Source of the DNA: Chloroflexota bacterium
GTDB taxonomy: Bacteria > Chloroflexota > UBA11872
Assembly (NCBI GenBank): GCA_026707285.1
Contig: JAPOXD010000023.1
Location: forward strand, 62,001-126,000
Direction: 5' to 3'
DNA: 64,000 nucleotides
The first letter of the stretch is position 1; every line of letters begins with the position of its first letter. Both the position numbers and the translations under genes were made by a program. Positions 28,690 through 62,394 of the stretch are shown in pieces. The notes below the pieces were generated by a model. That model was given only the letters and a program-made list of their open reading frames with translations. It did no database searches and had not been told where the DNA came from.

Positions 28690-28888
28690 GGGTGTGCTCC
28701 CGTGACTCAAACCTAGCGACCGTAGCACCTTGACGGGCAACCCAAGGTGCAGGGCGACACGAGGCTCCACGGCCAGGCGCCCTCGGCAACTGGCGTCGCG
28801 GGCGGTCCATAGGAGCAGCACGCCGATCTATAGTGGCCGCCAGGTGCCGGGGCCGGCTGGCGCCAAGAGAACGGCACGCGAGCAACCA
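28690..28888. promoter_or_regulatory. Divergent spacer between glycosidase-like copy A and the GH32-like gene
   Basis: This 199-bp region must contain start signals for both directions. A TATAGT-like -10 occurs near 28830 on the plus strand but no clear -35 was found; no operator-like repeat was seen. Confidence 0.3.
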
Positions 28889-30436
28889 ATGTCCGACTAC
28901 AGGTCGCGCGTACCCAGGTACACCTTTCCGACCTCGCTGGAAGCCCAGGAAGCGGCGCTCGCCACAAATCCGCTCATGCATCGGTTGCAGGCGTCGCGGG
29001 CGGCGCTCGCAGACGACCCGTACCGCCCGATTTATCATTATGTCAATCCGGAGTCCACGCTCAACGATCCCAACGGCCTCTGCTTCTGGCAGGGCAACTG
29101 GCACCTCTTCTATCAGGCCTATCCGCCGGAAGATCCGCGTCAACATTGGGGCCACGCCGTGTCAGCGGACCTCGTGCATTGGCGCGACCTCCCCTACTGC
29201 ATCTATCCCGACCCCGAAGAGAAGTGCTTTTCCGGCTCGACCCTAGTGGAGGACGACCGGGTCATCGCCATGTACTTCGGCACGCAGGTCGGCAACATGG
29301 TGGCCACGTCGAGCGATCCGCTGCTGCTCAACTGGACGAAAATTGCCAACCGGGCGGTGATTCCGATTGCCGCGCCCGACGGATCGCCCCTGCCATACAC
29401 CGTCTACGACCCCTGCATCTGGAAGAAAGACGGCGTCTACTACTCCCTCTCGGGCTGGGCGCGACCCGGGGGTCCCGCCGGCAAGCCGATCCGCGCGAAT
29501 TTCCTGTTTCGCTCCACCGACCTCGAGCATTGGGAATACCTGCACCCGTTCGTCGAAGGCGACCGCTACACCTTGGTCGGCGACGACGGCTCGGTGCCCT
29601 ATTTCTGGCCGATCGGCGACCGGCACATCCTGCTCTTCGCGAGCCACATGACGGGCGCCCAATACTTGCTGGGGGACTACGACACGGCGCGGGACAAGTT
29701 CGTGGCCACCCACGGGGGACGGTTCAATTTCGGCGCCATGCGGCCCGCCGGCATCCATGCGCCCTCCGGCACGCCGGACGGCCGGGGCGGCGTCATCGCA
29801 ATCTTCAACATGAACGAGGGCAAGCCAACCGAGGGTTGGAACCAGATCATGTCACTGCCGCGGCGCCTGACGCTCGACGGTGACGACCTGTTCATGGAAC
29901 CGGTGCCGGCGGTCGCGGAGCTGCGGGACGCTCACTCGCACCTGGGGACGACCCGGCTGCCCGCAAACGTGGAGCGCGTGTTCGAGTCGGTCCAGGGCCG
30001 GTCGCTCGAACTCGTGGCCGTGCTCGATCCCCAGGACGCACCCATGGTCGAGCTGAATGTCCTGCGCTCGTCGGGCAAGGAGGAGTTCACAGGCATCGCC
30101 TTCTACAGGAACCGGGGACATTTCGAGCGCGTCTTGGGTACCGGGCGGCATTTCAGCCTGGTCACCATCGACACGTCGTACGCGTCGGAGGCCGCCGATG
30201 TCCTTTCACGAGCTCCGGAAACGGCGCCGGTCAACATCGAGCCGGATGAGCCCGTCGAGTTGCGGGTCTTCGTCGACCACAGCGTCGTCGAGGTGTTCGT
30301 CAACTCCAAGCAATGCGCGGCGGTTCGCGTCTATCCGCAGCGGCCCGACAGCATAGGGGTATCGCTGCGAGCGCAAGGGGCCGAAGCCCTGCTCAAGTCG
30401 CTCGACGCGTGGACCATGCGCTCGATCTGGCATTGA
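28889..30436 (+). CDS. GH32-like glycoside hydrolase (beta-fructosidase fold)
   Basis: 515 aa from the ATG of MSDYRSRVPRYTFPTS; no signal peptide. N59-D-P-N-G63 is the GH32 nucleophile motif (D60) and HWGHAVSADLVHWRDLP follows as usual. The RDP motif is replaced by YDP (173-175) and the EC acid/base motif by SV in SVPYFWPIGD (from 235), so fructosidase activity on sucrose-like substrates is not assured. The C-terminal beta-sandwich module has LRVFVDHSVVEVFVNSKQCA, the classic GH32 C-domain signature. It probably cleaves a non-reducing terminal sugar of an imported oligosaccharide. A second homologue is at 51787-53229. Transcribed toward glycosidase-like copy B, with a hairpin between the stops. 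Confidence 0.88.
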   Translation: MSDYRSRVPRYTFPTSLEAQEAALATNPLMHRLQASRAALADDPYRPIYHYVNPESTLNDPNGLCFWQGNWHLFYQAYPPEDPRQHWGHAVSADLVHWRDLPYCIYPDPEEKCFSGSTLVEDDRVIAMYFGTQVGNMVATSSDPLLLNWTKIANRAVIPIAAPDGSPLPYTVYDPCIWKKDGVYYSLSGWARPGGPAGKPIRANFLFRSTDLEHWEYLHPFVEGDRYTLVGDDGSVPYFWPIGDRHILLFASHMTGAQYLLGDYDTARDKFVATHGGRFNFGAMRPAGIHAPSGTPDGRGGVIAIFNMNEGKPTEGWNQIMSLPRRLTLDGDDLFMEPVPAVAELRDAHSHLGTTRLPANVERVFESVQGRSLELVAVLDPQDAPMVELNVLRSSGKEEFTGIAFYRNRGHFERVLGTGRHFSLVTIDTSYASEAADVLSRAPETAPVNIEPDEPVELRVFVDHSVVEVFVNSKQCAAVRVYPQRPDSIGVSLRAQGAEALLKSLDAWTMRSIWH

Positions 30437-51786: not shown

Positions 51787-53229
51787 TCACGACCAGATCG
51801 AACGCATCGGCCAGACATCCACTGAGCGCACGACGGCGTCCCTTGCCGCAATGAGCGCCACGCCGGAGCTGTCCACACGCGAAGGGTAGATCCGCTGGGT
51901 GAGGCACTGGCGTCCGTTGGCAAACACCTCAACGATTGATCGATCGATGAAGATCTGCAACTGGAGCGCCTCGTCCGTGTCCAAATCTAGCGGCGCGTGT
52001 TGCACGGCGCGCCCAACGACATCCGGGCCGGCGCTCGAAGCCGTCGGATCGAGGGAAATCCGGCCGTCGGCCCGCGAGTAGACGATTCGCGTCTCCTCCG
52101 CCCCGTCCGGCGAACGGCCCACCGCGACGCCAATCTCGCCCGCGGTCTCGCGCTCGAAGGCCACCGCCACCTCGGCGCACGAGGCATCCACGCCGTCCAA
52201 CGGCGCCGGCGCTCCCGCCCGCACGTGCAAACCGTCGAACCGCTGGTGATTGCCCCGCAGCACCCCTAGCTCAGGCGCCGGCTCGATTCGCAGCAGATCG
52301 TCGTTGCCTAGCGACAGCACCCGCGGCAGACACATCGCGCCCGACCAACCCGAAGCACGTTGGGCGGCTTCCGTGCGTCCCTCGGTCACCCAGCCAAACA
52401 TGATGCGCCGGTCGGCCTCGTCGCGAAGCGAAAGCCCGGCGCACAGCGTCCCGCTCTCCAGCGAAAACCCGGCGAAGTTCATGCGGCCATGCCGCCGCGG
52501 CACGAATCGCTCGCCCGCCATCTCGCCCACGTAGTACTGCACGCCGCGCTCGTGGCTGGCGAACAGCAACACGTGCGCCTCGCCTAATCTGAACAGGTCC
52601 GGCACCGCGCAATCGCTCTCGCCTCGGGGCTCATAGAGCAAGCCGCGGTACTCCCAACGCACGAAATCCGGCGAGCGGAACAGGAACGCCGTGTCGCCGG
52701 CGCCCTCGATCTTGCCGCCGCACACGAGATACCACCGGTCGCCGTCCCGCCAGGCGCACGGGTCCCAGGCGCGCCACTCGGCCTGCGGATCGGTCGGATG
52801 CGGAATCAGCGGATTTGACGGATGCAGAGCCCAGGTGCGCAGGTCTGCATCGACGCTCGTGGCGACGCAAATCCCGTCGGGATTGCCGTAGTACACCAGC
52901 GCCGGCGCCCCGTCGAGTTCAATGGCGCCACCGCTGTAGCAACCGCGCCGGTCGGGTCCGCCGGGCTCGGGCGCCAGCGCAATGGGCAAGTCCCGCCAAT
53001 GGACCAGGTCATCGCTGACGGCGTGACCCCAGTGCATCCGCCGCGGATTGTCGTAGGCCTCGTCGGGGTTGTGCTGGTAGAAGAGGTGATAGACGCCATT
53101 CCAATGGATCGTCCCATTCGGATCGCCCAGAAAGTTCGCCGGCGCCGTGAAGTGATACGCGGGACGGTAGCGGTCGTCCCCCAGGCGCCGGCAATCGTCC
53201 TCGGCGCTCACGGTTGGGGCCTCGCTCAC
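51787..53229 (-). CDS. GH32-like glycoside hydrolase, second homologue
   Basis: 480 aa from a GTG (VSEAPTVSAEDDCRRLGDDR), 10 bp after the PhyH stop; a longer frame would invade that gene. The nucleophile motif is G35-D-P-N-G39 in place of NDPNG (D36 retained), the RDP motif is WDP (155-157), and the EC motif position reads AV in DCAVPDLF (from 206). HWGHAVSDDLVHWRDLP and the C-terminal LQIFIDRSIVEVFANGRQCL module confirm GH32 architecture. No signal peptide. As in the other GH32-like protein, the acid/base Glu is not at its usual place. Last gene of a four-gene minus-strand cluster with a sterol-methyltransferase homologue. Confidence 0.87.
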   Translation of the reverse strand: MSEAPTVSAEDDCRRLGDDRYRPAYHFTAPANFLGDPNGTIHWNGVYHLFYQHNPDEAYDNPRRMHWGHAVSDDLVHWRDLPIALAPEPGGPDRRGCYSGGAIELDGAPALVYYGNPDGICVATSVDADLRTWALHPSNPLIPHPTDPQAEWRAWDPCAWRDGDRWYLVCGGKIEGAGDTAFLFRSPDFVRWEYRGLLYEPRGESDCAVPDLFRLGEAHVLLFASHERGVQYYVGEMAGERFVPRRHGRMNFAGFSLESGTLCAGLSLRDEADRRIMFGWVTEGRTEAAQRASGWSGAMCLPRVLSLGNDDLLRIEPAPELGVLRGNHQRFDGLHVRAGAPAPLDGVDASCAEVAVAFERETAGEIGVAVGRSPDGAEETRIVYSRADGRISLDPTASSAGPDVVGRAVQHAPLDLDTDEALQLQIFIDRSIVEVFANGRQCLTQRIYPSRVDSSGVALIAARDAVVRSVDVWPMRSIWS

Positions 53230-53239
53230 GCGCGAATAC

Positions 53240-54034
53240 CTAGCTGGACGCAGCCGCCCCACCCCAGCCCGCAACCAGCGGAAACGCGCTGTCGGGCAGT
53301 CCGTCGCCGGGATCCAGCCCCAGGCCGTCAATCACCGGGTGCGGCAGGTGGGGGTCGTAGACCGCCGCCGCGTCCACCATCGCCACGCGATGGGCCACGC
53401 GCCACTCGTCGGTGAGATTCGGACCGGCCATGTGAAACGTGTAGCCGTTGTGAAACGTGCAATCGCCCGCCTGGAGCGGAATCGTGATGCGCGGCAACCA
53501 GGCCACCTCACCCACGTTCTGCAATGAACCCTTGGCGATGTCCGGCCGGTGGCCGTGCGCCACCTCCTTGGGCAGGTCCTTCCAGTGCTGGCTGCCCATG
53601 GCAAAGCTCATGCAGCCCATCTCGACCGACGTATCCTGCAGCGCGATCCAGGCCGTCAGCGCCCCCGGCGCGTTGCCCAGCGCCCACAGCGGCATGTCCT
53701 GGTGCGGCCGGGTCGGCCCGTCGTTGTGCGGCGGCTTGGCGATGATGTCGTCGTGCCACAGGCGCAGCGGCATCCCCGCCAGCCGCTCGGCGGCCGCTCC
53801 GAGCCGGGGAAGCATCGTCAGCGCGCGCATGGTCTCGTTCCACTTCCACAGCTGCACCCGTTGCTGATTCGCGCCGTCGATATCCAACTCGCCCGTCGGC
53901 CCCGCCAGCAGCAGCTGCATCCCCTCCTCGCGGTAGGCCGCCGCCTCCTCGCGGCTGATCAGCCCCGGCAGCTTGACCGCCCCGTGGACGCGGTAGAAGT
54001 CCACCATCGCCTGCGTCACGACACCCGCTGCCAT
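53240..54034 (-). CDS. Phytanoyl-CoA dioxygenase (PhyH) family Fe(II)/2OG oxygenase
   Basis: 264 aa starting MAAGVVTQAMVDFYRVHGAV. It has the canonical metal triad: H111-x-D113 in RPHQDMPLW and a distal His in YTFHMAGPN (about H201). ALTAWIALQDTSVEMGCMSF is the standard core strand. Likely hydroxylates an alkyl or sterol-like substrate, or a natural product, using 2-oxoglutarate and O2. Located between an orphan binding-protein gene (46 bp upstream) and a GH32-like gene (10 bp downstream), presumably one operon. Confidence 0.9.
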   Translation of the reverse strand: MAAGVVTQAMVDFYRVHGAVKLPGLISREEAAAYREEGMQLLLAGPTGELDIDGANQQRVQLWKWNETMRALTMLPRLGAAAERLAGMPLRLWHDDIIAKPPHNDGPTRPHQDMPLWALGNAPGALTAWIALQDTSVEMGCMSFAMGSQHWKDLPKEVAHGHRPDIAKGSLQNVGEVAWLPRITIPLQAGDCTFHNGYTFHMAGPNLTDEWRVAHRVAMVDAAAVYDPHLPHPVIDGLGLDPGDGLPDSAFPLVAGWGGAAASS

Positions 54035-54080: not shown

Positions 54081-56465
54081 TCACGCGTCGGGAATGAACC
54101 ATTGGAACGCCCGGTAGGGCTTGGTGAAGTTCGCCCCAGCGCCGAACCACAGGTCCTCATCGGGCACATTCTTGACCCGGTTGTTCACGATCACCGGATG
54201 CGGGGGCATGCCAACGGTGCCGATCACCGTCAGGTTTTCCGCCTGCCACCCGAAGTATTCGATCCCCCACCGGTCGTATTCGGGAGTGCCCGGAGCTGAG
54301 AGCTGCCACTGCCGCTTGGCCTCGCGGTTCTCAATGATCTCGGGCGGTGGCATGGGACCCGCGTCGCCTTCCCAGGCGAAGTACCGTGTCCATGCTCCCG
54401 CCCAGACTGCCCGCTTGCCGATATAGCCCCACACCCAGGGAACCCACCGGGTGAAGTAGCCGGACGCCTCGGTGTGCTCGATGCCGATCATGATCTCCGT
54501 GAGCAGATCTAGGCGCTCCTCGTATTCCGGTCGCTCCATCTCGATCCACCGTGCGTCCAGCCCGATGTCGCGCCAGTAGCCCGCGACAAGCTCGGCGATC
54601 AGGTCCTTCGGCCCCTCCCGATCGCCAATCTCCATGACCAGCGTGAGTCGCTCGCCATCGGGCCGCAGCCGCCAGCCTTGGGCGTCGCGCTGGTCGAGGC
54701 CGAGGCCGTCGAGCAGCCCGTTGGCCCTCTGGGGATCGTATTCCGTATGAATCGTTCCCCAGTGCGGCTGGAAGAAGCTATAGGTCGGCAGGATCGTGCC
54801 CTGAAACGGCACGGCGAGCCCGAAGTAGACCTCGTCATTGATCGCGTTGCGATCGAGGGCGATGGATAGTGCGATGCGGAAGTCGAGCTCGCGAAAGATC
54901 TCGGCCACGGCCTCGTCCTTGTAGGTCCAGTTGGGCTGGATGCCAAACGCCGAGCTGCGCAGCGTGCGCGAGAGGTGCAGCGTGTAGTCGCCGGAGTCCT
55001 GGTAGTCGAAGTAGATCGGGAGGTTGTAGAAGTTGAGCTCGAACTGCCCGAAGTCCAGCTCCCCCCGGGTAAGACGGATCTGGTAGACCTCTCGGTCCGA
55101 CAGCAACTCGAAGTTCAGGCCCTCCACGTAGGGCAGCTGGTTCCCGGCGGTGTCGACGATGTGAAAGTACGGGTTGCGGTCGAGCAATGCCCGGTCCGCC
55201 GAGTGGGCGGTCAGCGTCCACGGCTCCAGCACCGGTCGATCCACCGCATGCCGGGTAAACCAGGTCTGGTGCGCCCCCCAGCGCATTTTGGCCCTGTAGA
55301 GCTCCGTCCAATTGTCGAATCCCTCCCGCCTCGCCAACCTCTCGGCGTCGGGGTTGAAGTCCACGTGGAACTGCTCGATGTAGTGCGACGCGATGTAGAA
55401 CCCGCGCTCACTCCCGCCGCGGCCCAGGCGGTCCAGCAGGATCGGCGCCGGCTCGGGGTAGAAGATCTCTACGGTCTGCTCGTCATGCGCGCGAATGCCT
55501 GGCGGATTCCAGTTGATGTGGGGGAGAGGACCGCGCGGCGAGAGCTCTTCGTTCAACATGTAGTTCTCGTAGTGCCAAACAAAGTTTTCCGACGTGAACG
55601 GCGCCCCGTCCGACCATTTGTGGCCCTTGCGCAGCTCCAGGATTACTCCGCGCTTGTCGGGCGTGAGCTCGAAGTTCTGGACCAGGTCCCGCACCAGTTC
55701 GGTCGAGTGCATGTCGTAGGCGAGGGTGTCCGACCGGTTCGCGTTGCCAATGTCGACTGAAATGTTGACGCTGCCGAAGTTCAGGCGGCCGCCGTAGGTC
55801 CCGATCCGATCCCAGGGCTGCCACACGAGCGGCACCTCCGGCAGCCGCTCGCCAACCGGCGGCAGCTCGCCAGCCGCCACACGGGCCGCCAGCGACGGCG
55901 CCTCCTGGAAGCTCGGCGGCATGTATCCGACCGCTTCCATGTTGCGGTCGAGGCCTCGCGGCAATTGAGCCACCGGCGTTGGCGTTGGTGTCGCGGTCGG
56001 AGTGGCTGTCGGGGTCGGAGATGCCGTGGGCGTTGGAGCCGGCGTCGGGGTCGGGGTCGGGGTCGCAGTGGCAGCCGGCGCCGGCGTCGGAGTTGCCGTG
56101 GGTGACGGAGTCGGCGTTGGAGGGGGCGTCGGAGTGGCCGTCGGCGCCGGCGTCGGAGTCGCCGGGGGTGACGGCGTCGGCGTTGGAGGGGGAATCGGAG
56201 TGGCAGTCGGCGCCGGTGTCGGAGTTGGGGTGGCTGCCGGAGTGGCAGTCGGGGTGGCCGTTGGAGCCTCCGCGACCCTCGGCGTCGGAGCGACAGTGGG
56301 CGTTAGCGCTGGCGTCGGAACGGCGGGCGGGGCTTCGACTTCACCGCACGCAGCCACAACCGCTCCCAGAGCGCCGGCGGCGCCGAGCGCGCCAGTCGCG
56401 ACCAGAACCGTGCGGCGAGACATGGGCCGCCCCCCAATGCGGCGCGGCCGAGCTCGTTCACTCAC
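54081..56465 (-). CDS. Orphan SBP_bac_5-type lipoprotein binding protein with Thr/Pro-rich stalk
   Basis: 794 aa from a GTG with GGGGAGA 6 bp upstream; an ATG 14 codons later (MSRRTVLVATG) is also plausible. SRRTVL is a Tat motif and VVAAC ends a lipobox. Then about 110 residues of PTPTPAPTATPTP-type repeats. The folded region begins near GLDRNMEAVGYMPP and has LRKGHKWSDGAPFTSENFVW, YVEGLNFELLSDREVYQIRL and LDFRIALSIALDRNAINDEV, matching large oligopeptide-binding-type proteins. No permease genes adjoin it, so it either uses a distant transporter or acts as a surface binding or sensing protein. Confidence 0.9.
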   Translation of the reverse strand: MSERARPRRIGGRPMSRRTVLVATGALGAAGALGAVVAACGEVEAPPAVPTPALTPTVAPTPRVAEAPTATPTATPAATPTPTPAPTATPIPPPTPTPSPPATPTPAPTATPTPPPTPTPSPTATPTPAPAATATPTPTPTPAPTPTASPTPTATPTATPTPTPVAQLPRGLDRNMEAVGYMPPSFQEAPSLAARVAAGELPPVGERLPEVPLVWQPWDRIGTYGGRLNFGSVNISVDIGNANRSDTLAYDMHSTELVRDLVQNFELTPDKRGVILELRKGHKWSDGAPFTSENFVWHYENYMLNEELSPRGPLPHINWNPPGIRAHDEQTVEIFYPEPAPILLDRLGRGGSERGFYIASHYIEQFHVDFNPDAERLARREGFDNWTELYRAKMRWGAHQTWFTRHAVDRPVLEPWTLTAHSADRALLDRNPYFHIVDTAGNQLPYVEGLNFELLSDREVYQIRLTRGELDFGQFELNFYNLPIYFDYQDSGDYTLHLSRTLRSSAFGIQPNWTYKDEAVAEIFRELDFRIALSIALDRNAINDEVYFGLAVPFQGTILPTYSFFQPHWGTIHTEYDPQRANGLLDGLGLDQRDAQGWRLRPDGERLTLVMEIGDREGPKDLIAELVAGYWRDIGLDARWIEMERPEYEERLDLLTEIMIGIEHTEASGYFTRWVPWVWGYIGKRAVWAGAWTRYFAWEGDAGPMPPPEIIENREAKRQWQLSAPGTPEYDRWGIEYFGWQAENLTVIGTVGMPPHPVIVNNRVKNVPDEDLWFGAGANFTKPYRAFQWFIPDA
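55985..56330 (-). repeat. Low-complexity Thr/Pro/Ala-coding repeat
   Basis: On the plus strand this reads GGCGTCGGAGTGGC-like units. On the coding strand it gives TPTPAPTATPTPPP-type repeats linking lipobox and ligand domain. Such linkers are often glycosylated and extended in surface lipoproteins. Confidence 0.9.
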
Positions 56466-56507: not shown

Positions 56508-57527
56508 CTAGCCCGGCTTGCGGGCATGGATCAAATACATCGGCGTGAAGATGCCCAGCCGGCCCGCTTCGACCATGGCCGTCGCGCAGAGATTCAGCGT
56601 CGCCGCGACGCGAGTCGTGCCCTTCGGCGCGATGCGCAGCGCCTCGAGCGCTCTCACGGAATTGTGAGTGACCCAGCGACCGATCCTCGAGCTGCGAAAG
56701 GCGGCCAGCGAAATCCCCGAACCCACCAGCGGTTCGTACCAGGGAATCGACGGACCGGTCTGCTGCGCCAGGTCCCGCGTCTCCAACACCTCGAATCCCA
56801 CCGACCGAAGCGCGCGATCAACGGTTCCCACGTCGTCGATGACGGGCAGTCCGCCCCCCAGCTGCATGTCGTGCATGATCCGCCGCTGGAGCGGGTCTTG
56901 GGCGTCGAATCGATCGGTCATGCAGTACTCATACGCGCCGAAGCATGCTCCGGGCTTGAGCAGGCGAAACACCTCGCGATAGATACTGACCTTGTCCGGG
57001 GCGCAGCACGTGGCCTCGATGGAGTAGGCCGCGTCGAACGACTCGTCCGGGGCATCCACGTTCAGAAAGTCGCCGTGCAGGAACTCGGCCAGGTGCGCCA
57101 GCCCTGCTTCGTCCACGAGCCTTCGGGCGCGCTCGAGTTGATAGCCATTGCTGTTGACGCCCACGATCTTCGCGCCGGTAGACCGAGCAATCTCGATCAG
57201 CGGACCGCCGACGCCGCACCCGAAATCGGCGACGACCATCCCGGGTTTGAGCCCGAGCCTTTGCGCCAGATTGCGCTCGTGGCGCGCCAGCGATGCCTTG
57301 AAACTCTCACCGGGCGCCCGCGGAGCAAAGTGAAACGACCGGCCCCAGCCAAACTCAAAGAAATCCGTTACCAGGTCGTAGTAGAGATTGTTGACCGTCG
57401 TGTAGTCGTCTTTCGGCGATCCATCGCGCTGGTCAAGCTCGAATCGGCGCTCGTATTCGCCCACCGTCGAAGCGACGCCCGAAGCGCGTTGGTTGTCCTT
57501 GAGCGACTTGGAAAGCTTGACCGCCAT
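56508..57527 (-). CDS. Sterol C24-methyltransferase-like SAM-dependent methyltransferase
   Basis: 339 aa. YYDLVTDFFEFGWGRSFHFA (residues 49-68) is the sterol-binding region I characteristic of ERG6/SMT enzymes. LGLKPGMVVADFGCGVGGP (91-109) is the SAM-binding motif I. SIEATCCAPDKVSIY (169-183) is the YAIEATCHAP-type SMT motif, with Cys for His at 175. YEYCMTDRFDAQDPLQRRI and IPWYEPL also follow SMT order. Eukaryotic SMTs methylate C24 of sterol side chains. No signal or membrane anchor is visible. First gene of a minus-strand cluster with a binding protein (42 bp), a PhyH dioxygenase and a GH32-like enzyme. No oxidosqualene cyclase is in the window, so the substrate could be host- or environment-derived sterol or another isoprenoid. 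Confidence 0.87.
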   Translation of the reverse strand: MAVKLSKSLKDNQRASGVASTVGEYERRFELDQRDGSPKDDYTTVNNLYYDLVTDFFEFGWGRSFHFAPRAPGESFKASLARHERNLAQRLGLKPGMVVADFGCGVGGPLIEIARSTGAKIVGVNSNGYQLERARRLVDEAGLAHLAEFLHGDFLNVDAPDESFDAAYSIEATCCAPDKVSIYREVFRLLKPGACFGAYEYCMTDRFDAQDPLQRRIMHDMQLGGGLPVIDDVGTVDRALRSVGFEVLETRDLAQQTGPSIPWYEPLVGSGISLAAFRSSRIGRWVTHNSVRALEALRIAPKGTTRVAATLNLCATAMVEAGRLGIFTPMYLIHARKPG

Positions 57528-61005: not shown

Positions 61006-62394
61006 TCACTCATCCTTTTCGCACAATTCACCATCGAGAAATTGCGGGAGCATGGTTGCACAGTCCCCCGAAATCTTAAGAATTCGATCTCGACCGCGAA
61101 ATCCGGGAATCTGAGTCTCAAATCTCCTGCGCACCTTTTCGATCACACCCGAATCAGGATCAATGATCAACATTCGCGTATCATTAGACTCCTGCATAGC
61201 CTTACTGACCATTCTCGAAATATAAAGATCCGCCTCCGAAAACGAAAATCCTACAACAACAATGAGGGACTTTCCGGCGAATGCTCGAGTGGCATTCCCA
61301 ATGAGCGGGTGGAGCGGAGGAGCGGAATCAAATTTCATCGCGTGTGGCGGAACCAACAAACCTCGCTTCTGACCACCGCACACATTGCACACACTGATGA
61401 TTGGATATTCACCACTACGGTCCCGATACGCTTGTATCGTAGACTCGATTTCAATGAGTCGTACATCTTGACAAGTCTCGCAATAAAACCAATTCAGACT
61501 CCCGTGAAGTTTGATCAGGGGCGCACCCGCCTCATCAGCATGAACCAACACCTGCGGGTTGGCGAACTCGATTGTATAGGAGAATGGCACATTCCCATTT
61601 AACAGTGCCCTGTCTATGCAGCAATCATAGTTCGTCGTAACAACCGGGGTTCCGGCATGGCTATCGATAAATTTGACTATGGCGTGATGACCACCGTTAG
61701 GATCGGCCGGAAGCATGAGATTGGAAAGCAGACCAAATAGCATCTGAAGTGTGTCCTGAAGGTGCGCCACAGACGACGTGTCCGTTCTCGCGCGCTCAAG
61801 ACCACTGCTTCTTCGCTCTCTCTCAGCATCTACCCGCCGAAATAGCTGAAAGCGCACTAAGTTGAGTACCCCGGGGTTTCTACTGCAGAATTCGGAGATT
61901 TGAACTGCGGTAAGCAAGTCTTCAATGTTGTCAATTCTCTGGTCTTCACAGAACTTCGCGAGGCGGGTCATGGGCTCCCGTTCAAGGCGGCGCGCACGAC
62001 TCAATAATTCTGGCAAGAGCTCCGTCACCGTGGGAATGTTCGAAGGGTGAGGTTTCGACGCACCAGCCCCGAGAAGAAATGCGATCTTCTCCTGCATCGG
62101 ATCAATCTGTCTAATCAGCGGATCGACTGGCTTGAGGTTGTCAAAGACATCGACAATATTTCCCGGATATTGCCGACTTCTATAGCGCTGTAAATGCTCG
62201 ACATAGTCTCTATTTGCGCTAAATGCTTCCAGCCATTTGGGATGGAGATCTTCGTGGCCTTCAACGATGTCATCGTCGGTGATGAGCTCGTCCAACATCC
62301 TTGCTATCTCTGGTCCGGAGACCCCTCCTTCCAACCTAATGAGCATCGAATGTTGCATAGGTGAGATATTCTGAGTGCCTACGGATATTGACAC
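61006..62394 (-). CDS. SIR2-family protein (SIR2_2 type), probable anti-phage NAD-consuming effector
   Basis: 462 aa from a GTG with a strong AGGAGG 8 bp upstream. An N-terminal segment of about 100 residues is unassigned. The SIR2 domain has FLLGAGASKP (109-113 GAGAS, NAD loop), VVTTNYDCCID (253-257 TTNYD), KLHGSLNWF (catalytic H297), two CxxC pairs (CETC 305-308, CNVC 336-339; likely structural zinc) and VGFSFSEADLYI (382-393). Proteins of this type are NADases in several defence systems. Codon use is AT-richer than the host, and it lies next to a tRNA fragment and transposase debris, so it was probably acquired. No partner gene (Argonaute, HerA, TIR) is adjacent. A deacylase role is less likely for this subgroup. 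Confidence 0.88.
   Translation of the reverse strand: MSISVGTQNISPMQHSMLIRLEGGVSGPEIARMLDELITDDDIVEGHEDLHPKWLEAFSANRDYVEHLQRYRSRQYPGNIVDVFDNLKPVDPLIRQIDPMQEKIAFLLGAGASKPHPSNIPTVTELLPELLSRARRLEREPMTRLAKFCEDQRIDNIEDLLTAVQISEFCSRNPGVLNLVRFQLFRRVDAERERRSSGLERARTDTSSVAHLQDTLQMLFGLLSNLMLPADPNGGHHAIVKFIDSHAGTPVVTTNYDCCIDRALLNGNVPFSYTIEFANPQVLVHADEAGAPLIKLHGSLNWFYCETCQDVRLIEIESTIQAYRDRSGEYPIISVCNVCGGQKRGLLVPPHAMKFDSAPPLHPLIGNATRAFAGKSLIVVVGFSFSEADLYISRMVSKAMQESNDTRMLIIDPDSGVIEKVRRRFETQIPGFRGRDRILKISGDCATMLPQFLDGELCEKDE

Follow-up and report, generated by a model that had tools for sequence, protein, structure and literature searches.

Functional bacterial sterol methyltransferases (SMTs) are known from uncultured sponge symbionts, Chlamydiae and Sandaracinus (Brown et al. 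2023, PMC10070321). Bacterial sterol alkylation was shown there mostly in genomes that are also able to make sterols, and a Chlamydiae MAG without other sterol genes encoded a functional SMT that gave 24-isopropyl sterols in vitro (PMC10070321). Kelly et al. 2022 (PMC9531527) report an enrichment of SMT1/ERG6 in bacteria that live with sponges and belong to many phyla, and give evidence of horizontal transfer of core steroid genes in Ircinia symbionts. A search of open-licence papers on Chloroflexota, sponges and SMTs returned one paper. Steranes alkylated at C24 are interpreted as fossil traces of eukaryotes or sponges, and the gene analyzed here, through its likely role, bears on the origin of the "sponge" sterols used as fossil markers.

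This gene lies in a 64,000-nucleotide stretch of DNA (the window) from a Chloroflexota genome of 3.2 Mb in 61 contigs, 97% complete, whose habitat was judged from that of its relatives.

The window methyltransferase and its relatives

An ORF with an ATG start on the minus strand (56508..57527) encodes a 339-aa sterol 24-C-methyltransferase homolog, SMT-A. The kind of enzyme is already known, as functional bacterial SMTs in sponge symbionts have been published (PMC10070321). The original prediction had placed the protein in the ERG6/SMT family rather than among generic methyltransferases, and this assignment is supported by the C-terminal Sterol_MT_C domain (aa 276-338, 56514..56702, minus strand; Pfam PF08498, 89.6 bits, E = 1.4e-25, cut-off 21.7) and by an identity of about 43-45% over the full length to the proteins ERG6 of yeast and SMT1 of Arabidopsis, a comparison to be read as a lead rather than as database fact, the three eukaryotic SMT references being provisional sequences; its place within the SMT tree agrees with the assignment. 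Methyltransf_11 was matched as well (PF08241, 60.7 bits, E = 2e-16). In the Pfam search PF08498 was absent from all 14 control genomes, and an NCBIfam search of SMT-A matched no SMT model, only weak generic methyltransferases. Generic methyltransferases of known structure match SMT-A mainly in the catalytic core; a generic enzyme of the ubiE, tocopherol or PEAMT type was ruled out by the C-terminal domain and the full-length SMT similarity.

Both of the SMT motifs that had been predicted are present in the ORF. SMT region I, YYDLVTDFFEFGWGRSFHFA, spans aa 49-68 (57324..57383, minus strand); it reads FEFGWGRSFHFA, which fits the YEYGWG.SFHF-type motif, and its core residues Y50, G60, W61, G62, F65, H66, F67 and A68 are invariant in 31 relatives. 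The EATCCAPD motif, identified by alignment and residue survey, occupies aa 171-178 (56994..57017, minus strand), with Cys175 in place of the His of EATCHAP. Between the two lies the SAM-binding motif VVADFGCGVGGP (aa 98-109; 57201..57236, minus strand), in which D101, G103, C104, G105, G107 and G108 are invariant in the 31 relatives. Full-length SMT-A orthologs from the same genus share 85-89% identity at dN/dS of 0.15-0.17, and SMT-A is therefore a real gene under purifying selection and no chance ORF; remoter orthologs gave dN/dS of 0.10-0.22, with dS near or above 0.8. An AlphaFold2 model based on an alignment of 31 relatives (pLDDT 81, pTM 0.82) predicts a small-molecule methyltransferase fold. 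Foldseek matched it only to structures of the RebM/AtmM, MitM, TleD, SpnF and geranyl diphosphate C-methyltransferase kinds; a solved SMT of the SMT-A type was absent from the matches, and the fold search does not discriminate substrate.

In the window genus the genes next to SMT-A encode PhyH, a binding protein of the oligopeptide type and a TPP enzyme. A GH32-like beta-fructosidase gene (51787-53331, minus strand), PhyH and the TPP enzyme keep their order beside SMT-A within the genus; a further GH32-like gene lies at 28730-30436 (plus strand). The family 5 solute-binding protein encoded at 54081-56465 (minus strand) has a long TPTPAP-type linker after the signal region, and a similar linker occurs at L008:781-2928. 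An ORF with a SIR2_2 domain at 61006-62394 (minus strand) possibly encodes a defense-type protein.

Relatives were collected by scanning one genome per species (GTDB) and keeping the best 80 of 306; the 80 kept all come from MAGs. A phylogeny with bacterial and eukaryotic SMTs had been proposed as a check of the family assignment; in our tree, which was built by a quick method with SH-aLRT support only and no non-SMT outgroup, SMT-A falls within a branch of 81 SMT rows with support of 100, and the eukaryotic SMTs form a branch of their own. The 81 rows stem largely from sponge-symbiont MAGs of several phyla, and include Chloroflexota, Acidimicrobiia, Alphaproteobacteria, Acidobacteriota, Nitrospinota, Nitrospirota, Binatota and others. 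Chloroflexota and Actinomycetota are each broken into several groups, a scatter that suggests horizontal transfer of SMTs. SMT tandems were seen in several of the loci (L068, L069, L070, L074), and in an alphaproteobacterial Ircinia symbiont three tandem SMT genes lie beside a fused epoxidase-cyclase cluster (L085:1282-4336). The isolate prefixes RHO, COS and IRC presumably stand for Rhopaloeides, Coscinoderma and Ircinia ramosa. Isolate names with these prefixes fit the set of PMC8163846; the jk18x names among the relatives belong to Ircinia symbionts (PMC9531527), and many of the SMT loci compared here come from that MAG set. A Sandaracinus MAG in the tree (isolate NAT131, locus L111) appears to be the one tested by Brown et al. 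(PMC10070321).

The Cys-for-His change in EATCHAP, which the original prediction had singled out, is present in SMT-A and is not peculiar to it. Position 175 is Cys in 61 of 106 non-type-B SMT rows and His in 45, among them eukaryotes, myxobacteria and the relatives from the distant Chloroflexota family f72, and a tree built without that column needs nine changes between the two residues. These counts indicate that Cys175 is a recurrent feature of the SMT-A clade, and it marks much of it. A profile search places Cys175 opposite a His of MitM and of RebM.

Sterol cyclization genes

The original prediction had found no cyclase nearby and had left the source of the sterol open. There is indeed none in the window, and for oxidosqualene cyclase (OSC) the same is true genome-wide: whole-genome searches of the 97%-complete genome found neither OSC nor squalene epoxidase (PF08491). 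The sole squalene cyclase, on contig C25, scores 724 bits to the squalene-hopene cyclase (SHC) model TIGR01507 (cut-off 431) and 260 bits to the OSC model (cut-off 851), and carries a DVDDTA motif; an OSC in this genome was ruled out, the only cyclase being an SHC by score. The SHC gene belongs to a hopanoid run, HpnC-HpnD-HpnE-SHC-HpnH (L007:6758-12923, contig C25), with all members above NCBIfam cut-offs, and the genome is predicted to make hopanoids. With no squalene epoxidase and no OSC, the sterol is not made by these enzymes in the cell, and the choice narrows to a substrate from outside the cell or one that is not a sterol.

PF08498 was detected in 24 of 400 Chloroflexota genomes, 22 of them in the class of the window genome and two in f72. 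Neither an OSC-level cyclase nor a squalene epoxidase was found in any of these 22, of which 19 reach a completeness of 90% or more. The two f72 genomes, our positive control, carry a fused epoxidase-cyclase clustered with 3beta-HSD-like, Rieske/VanA_C, ERG24 and P450 genes; the searches are therefore able to find a sterol pathway. It should be noted that a single missed gene is possible in a genome of 61 contigs and 97% completeness, and that MAG binning error is a caveat for single genomes; the former is unlikely in 22 genomes, and the latter applies less easily to 22. Among 50 further SMT-bearing genomes, classified by score only and irrespective of completeness, an OSC-level match (>400 bits) was present in 20, an SHC-level match only (225-271 bits) in 13, and none or a fragment in 17. 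We found no description in open-licence papers of a genome-wide absence of sterol cyclization in an SMT-bearing Chloroflexota lineage.

A second SMT in a putative tailoring cassette

Contig C10 of the same genome encodes a second SMT, SMT-B (366 aa; PF08498, 1.4e-15), which is of type B and lies in a long-branched clade of the tree with support of 100. It forms part of a cassette (L008:6110-14520) that consists, in order, of a Rieske oxygenase (KshA_C), an MMPL transporter (sterol-sensing), SMT-B, a GPP34/P450 protein and an FAD oxidoreductase, the last two on the strand opposite to the others. The Rieske oxygenase has a KshA_C domain (Pfam, 3.6e-23) and KshA as its closest solved structures, and the MMPL/RND transporter has Sterol-sensing domain matches (Pfam, 1.1e-13). 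At L008:10920-13010, Pfam identifies a fusion of GPP34 (Golgi phosphoprotein 3, 4e-30) with a cytochrome P450 (5e-30), the closest solved structures of the P450 part being CYP51. The FAD oxidoreductase is amine-oxidase-like, with LkcE and the 2b9w flavoenzyme as its closest solved relatives. A tandem pair of ERG4/ERG24-family reductases is situated on C10 about 30 kb from the cassette; in sister genera a similar pair adjoins it.

The cassette is conserved in families f1, f2 and f3. In the window genus SMT-A lies away from it, and in one f2 genome (G085) SMT-A, SMT-B and the cassette stand together in one 11-kb cluster. SMT-A accompanied by at least three cassette genes was also found in Alphaproteobacteria (L077, L079, L082, L099), Nitrospinota (L081), Nitrospirota (L097) and an unassigned MAG (L088). 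The GPP34-P450 fusions at these loci were confirmed by Pfam, and the fusion occurs in at least four phyla. Across those phyla the FAD oxidoreductases share 68-93% identity, equal to or above that of SMT-A, and the Rieske and FAD oxidoreductase genes have an identical distribution among the 43 genomes tested, 24 of which carry both. In a gammaproteobacterium (L113) the FAD oxidoreductase gene is placed between OSC and SMT, and in the f72 sterol makers KshA-type Rieske genes adjoin SMTs; the cassette is therefore tied to sterols. SMT-A occurs without the cassette in two genomes (G010, G093) and the cassette without any SMT in three (G069, G109 and G301; L157 and L146 are the loci of G069 and G109, family f3), and SMT-B seems dispensable or lost in cassette-bearing f3 genomes. 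Open-licence papers yielded no account of the GPP34-P450 fusion, and no description of a cyclase-free tailoring cassette that includes it and spans several phyla.

Proposed tailoring of external sterols and comparison with known systems

In the SMT family, SAM-dependent attack on the Delta24 bond creates a cation whose quenching yields 24-methylene or related products, and reductases of the ERG4 type eliminate the Delta24(28) bond. Based on our findings, we consider it likely that SMT-A is a bacterial sterol C24-methyltransferase acting on externally sourced sterols, and that the cassette tailors these further. The data presented here supply the family membership, the selection, the absence of cyclase and epoxidase, and the cassette with its conservation. 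With SAM as the donor, SMT-A would methylate a sterol side chain at its Delta24 double bond; the products would be 24-methyl or 24-methylene sterols, possibly with repeated methylation. The Delta24 sterol would be imported, most likely from a sponge host or from sterol-making neighbors, because the genome has hopanoid genes but neither squalene epoxidase nor OSC. SMT-B, the KshA-type Rieske enzyme, the GPP34-P450, the FAD oxidoreductase, the ERG4/ERG24-type reductases and the sterol-sensing MMPL would make up the further tailoring set, with the cassette altering the sterol nucleus or other parts of the chain. We infer this substrate, these products, the host origin and the direction of transport, as well as the sharing of one molecule by SMT-A and the cassette. 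The functional SMT of the Chlamydiae MAG without other sterol genes (PMC10070321) sets a precedent. Weighing against this reading, SMT-A and the cassette lie apart in the window genus, some genomes carry one and not the other, and Cys175 takes the place of a His in the active-site region.

Other roles for SMT-A have to be weighed. It might methylate the cell's own squalene, or another linear or hopanoid isoprenoid; the squalene and botryococcene methyltransferases of Botryococcus are themselves SMT-derived. This would agree with a genome that has HpnC/D/E for squalene and an SHC and no sterol cyclase, and with a predicted fold like that of geranyl diphosphate C-methyltransferase, though equally like those of many other small-molecule methyltransferases. 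We regard it as unlikely, however: homologs in the same clade and in sister clades sit in sterol clusters (OSC, CYP51-like P450, ERG24, 3beta-HSD-like), and the genome's own KshA-type Rieske, sterol-sensing MMPL and ERG4/24 are of kinds that act on tetracyclic sterols in known cases. Alternatively, the bacterium could make sterols, its cyclase and epoxidase being missing from an incomplete genome or replaced by unrecognized enzymes. Sponge-associated Dehalococcoidia MAGs with OSC clusters are on record (PMC9531527), and OSC-level matches are found in SMT genomes of the same clade (L060, L090, L051, L064); yet the result for the 22 genomes of the class, and the fact that an unrelated alternative squalene epoxidase without OSC would give no sterols, make this quite improbable.

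The KshA_C domain and the closeness to KshA structures could also point to sterol degradation for carbon, with the oxygenase as a catabolic 9alpha-hydroxylase, but SMTs and ERG4/24 reductases serve to construct side chains, not to break them down, and we give this very little credence. The genome has no match to the extradiol dioxygenase model TIGR03213, a proxy that should pick up HsaC of the 9,10-seco route, and sterol catabolism was set aside on that result. Least probable of all is a pseudo-SMT in which the His-to-Cys change abolished sterol methylation and which methylates something else. Cys175 does replace the His of EATCHAP, which lines up with a His of MitM and of RebM, and two of ten symbiont SMT homologs were inactive on both substrates offered (PMC10070321). 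Against this, the other conserved SMT motifs are all intact, purifying selection acts on the gene, and the 61 homologs with Cys include some that adjoin the sterol cassette (L077, L081, L099) and one at a locus that also has an OSC (L085).

In a whole Chloroflexota lineage, SMTs and a tailoring set are maintained by selection in genomes that lack sterol cyclization, and similar sets occur in other symbiont phyla. If methylation and tailoring of sterols made by others are confirmed, neither host nor symbiont genomes on their own reveal the sterol profile of a sponge, and the number of SMT copies in a genome is a poor guide to the maker of the product. The cassette also supplies specific genes as candidates for sponge sterol chemistry still to be discovered; one may speculate about a 9,11-secosterol or Delta5,7-sterol role for the Rieske enzyme. 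More tentatively, a module for sterol tailoring (two SMT types, KshA-type Rieske, GPP34-P450, FAD oxidoreductase, MMPL and ERG4/24) may be common to sponge symbionts of multiple phyla, in part through horizontal transfer, and work on sterols of the sponge or of other symbionts. The unusual alkylated and nucleus-modified sponge sterols would then reflect a division of labor, and one of the SMTs could be a missing side-chain enzyme, for example for C26 methylation.

Compared with known systems, the cassette MMPL matches the models of both the sterol transporter BstA and HpnN (RND) weakly, far below curated cut-offs, and by these scores would not be a member of either family. The cassette Rieske shares Rieske and KshA_C domains with the 3-ketosteroid 9alpha-hydroxylase KshA, its best PDB match, with useful-score similarity over only about one third of the sequence. 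We also take it to be linked to the Neverland/DAF-36 sterol 7-desaturases. SMT-A resembles eukaryotic ERG6/SMT1/SMT2 in full-length homology, region I, the EATC.AP motif and the C-terminal domain, and differs from them in having Cys at 175 where they have His, Tyr at 201 where they have Trp, and a separate branch. The core cluster of Kelly et al. consists of ERG24-CYP51-LSS (PMC9531527), whereas the C10 cassette, which the excerpted text of that paper does not describe, has no cyclase and instead carries the KshA-type Rieske, GPP34-P450, FAD oxidoreductase and MMPL. SMT-A is like the SMTs of Brown et al. (PMC10070321) in family, in its Pfam architecture of methyltransferase plus Sterol_MT_C and in its probable sponge-symbiont origin; unlike those systems, the window genome has a second, divergent SMT inside a tailoring cassette.
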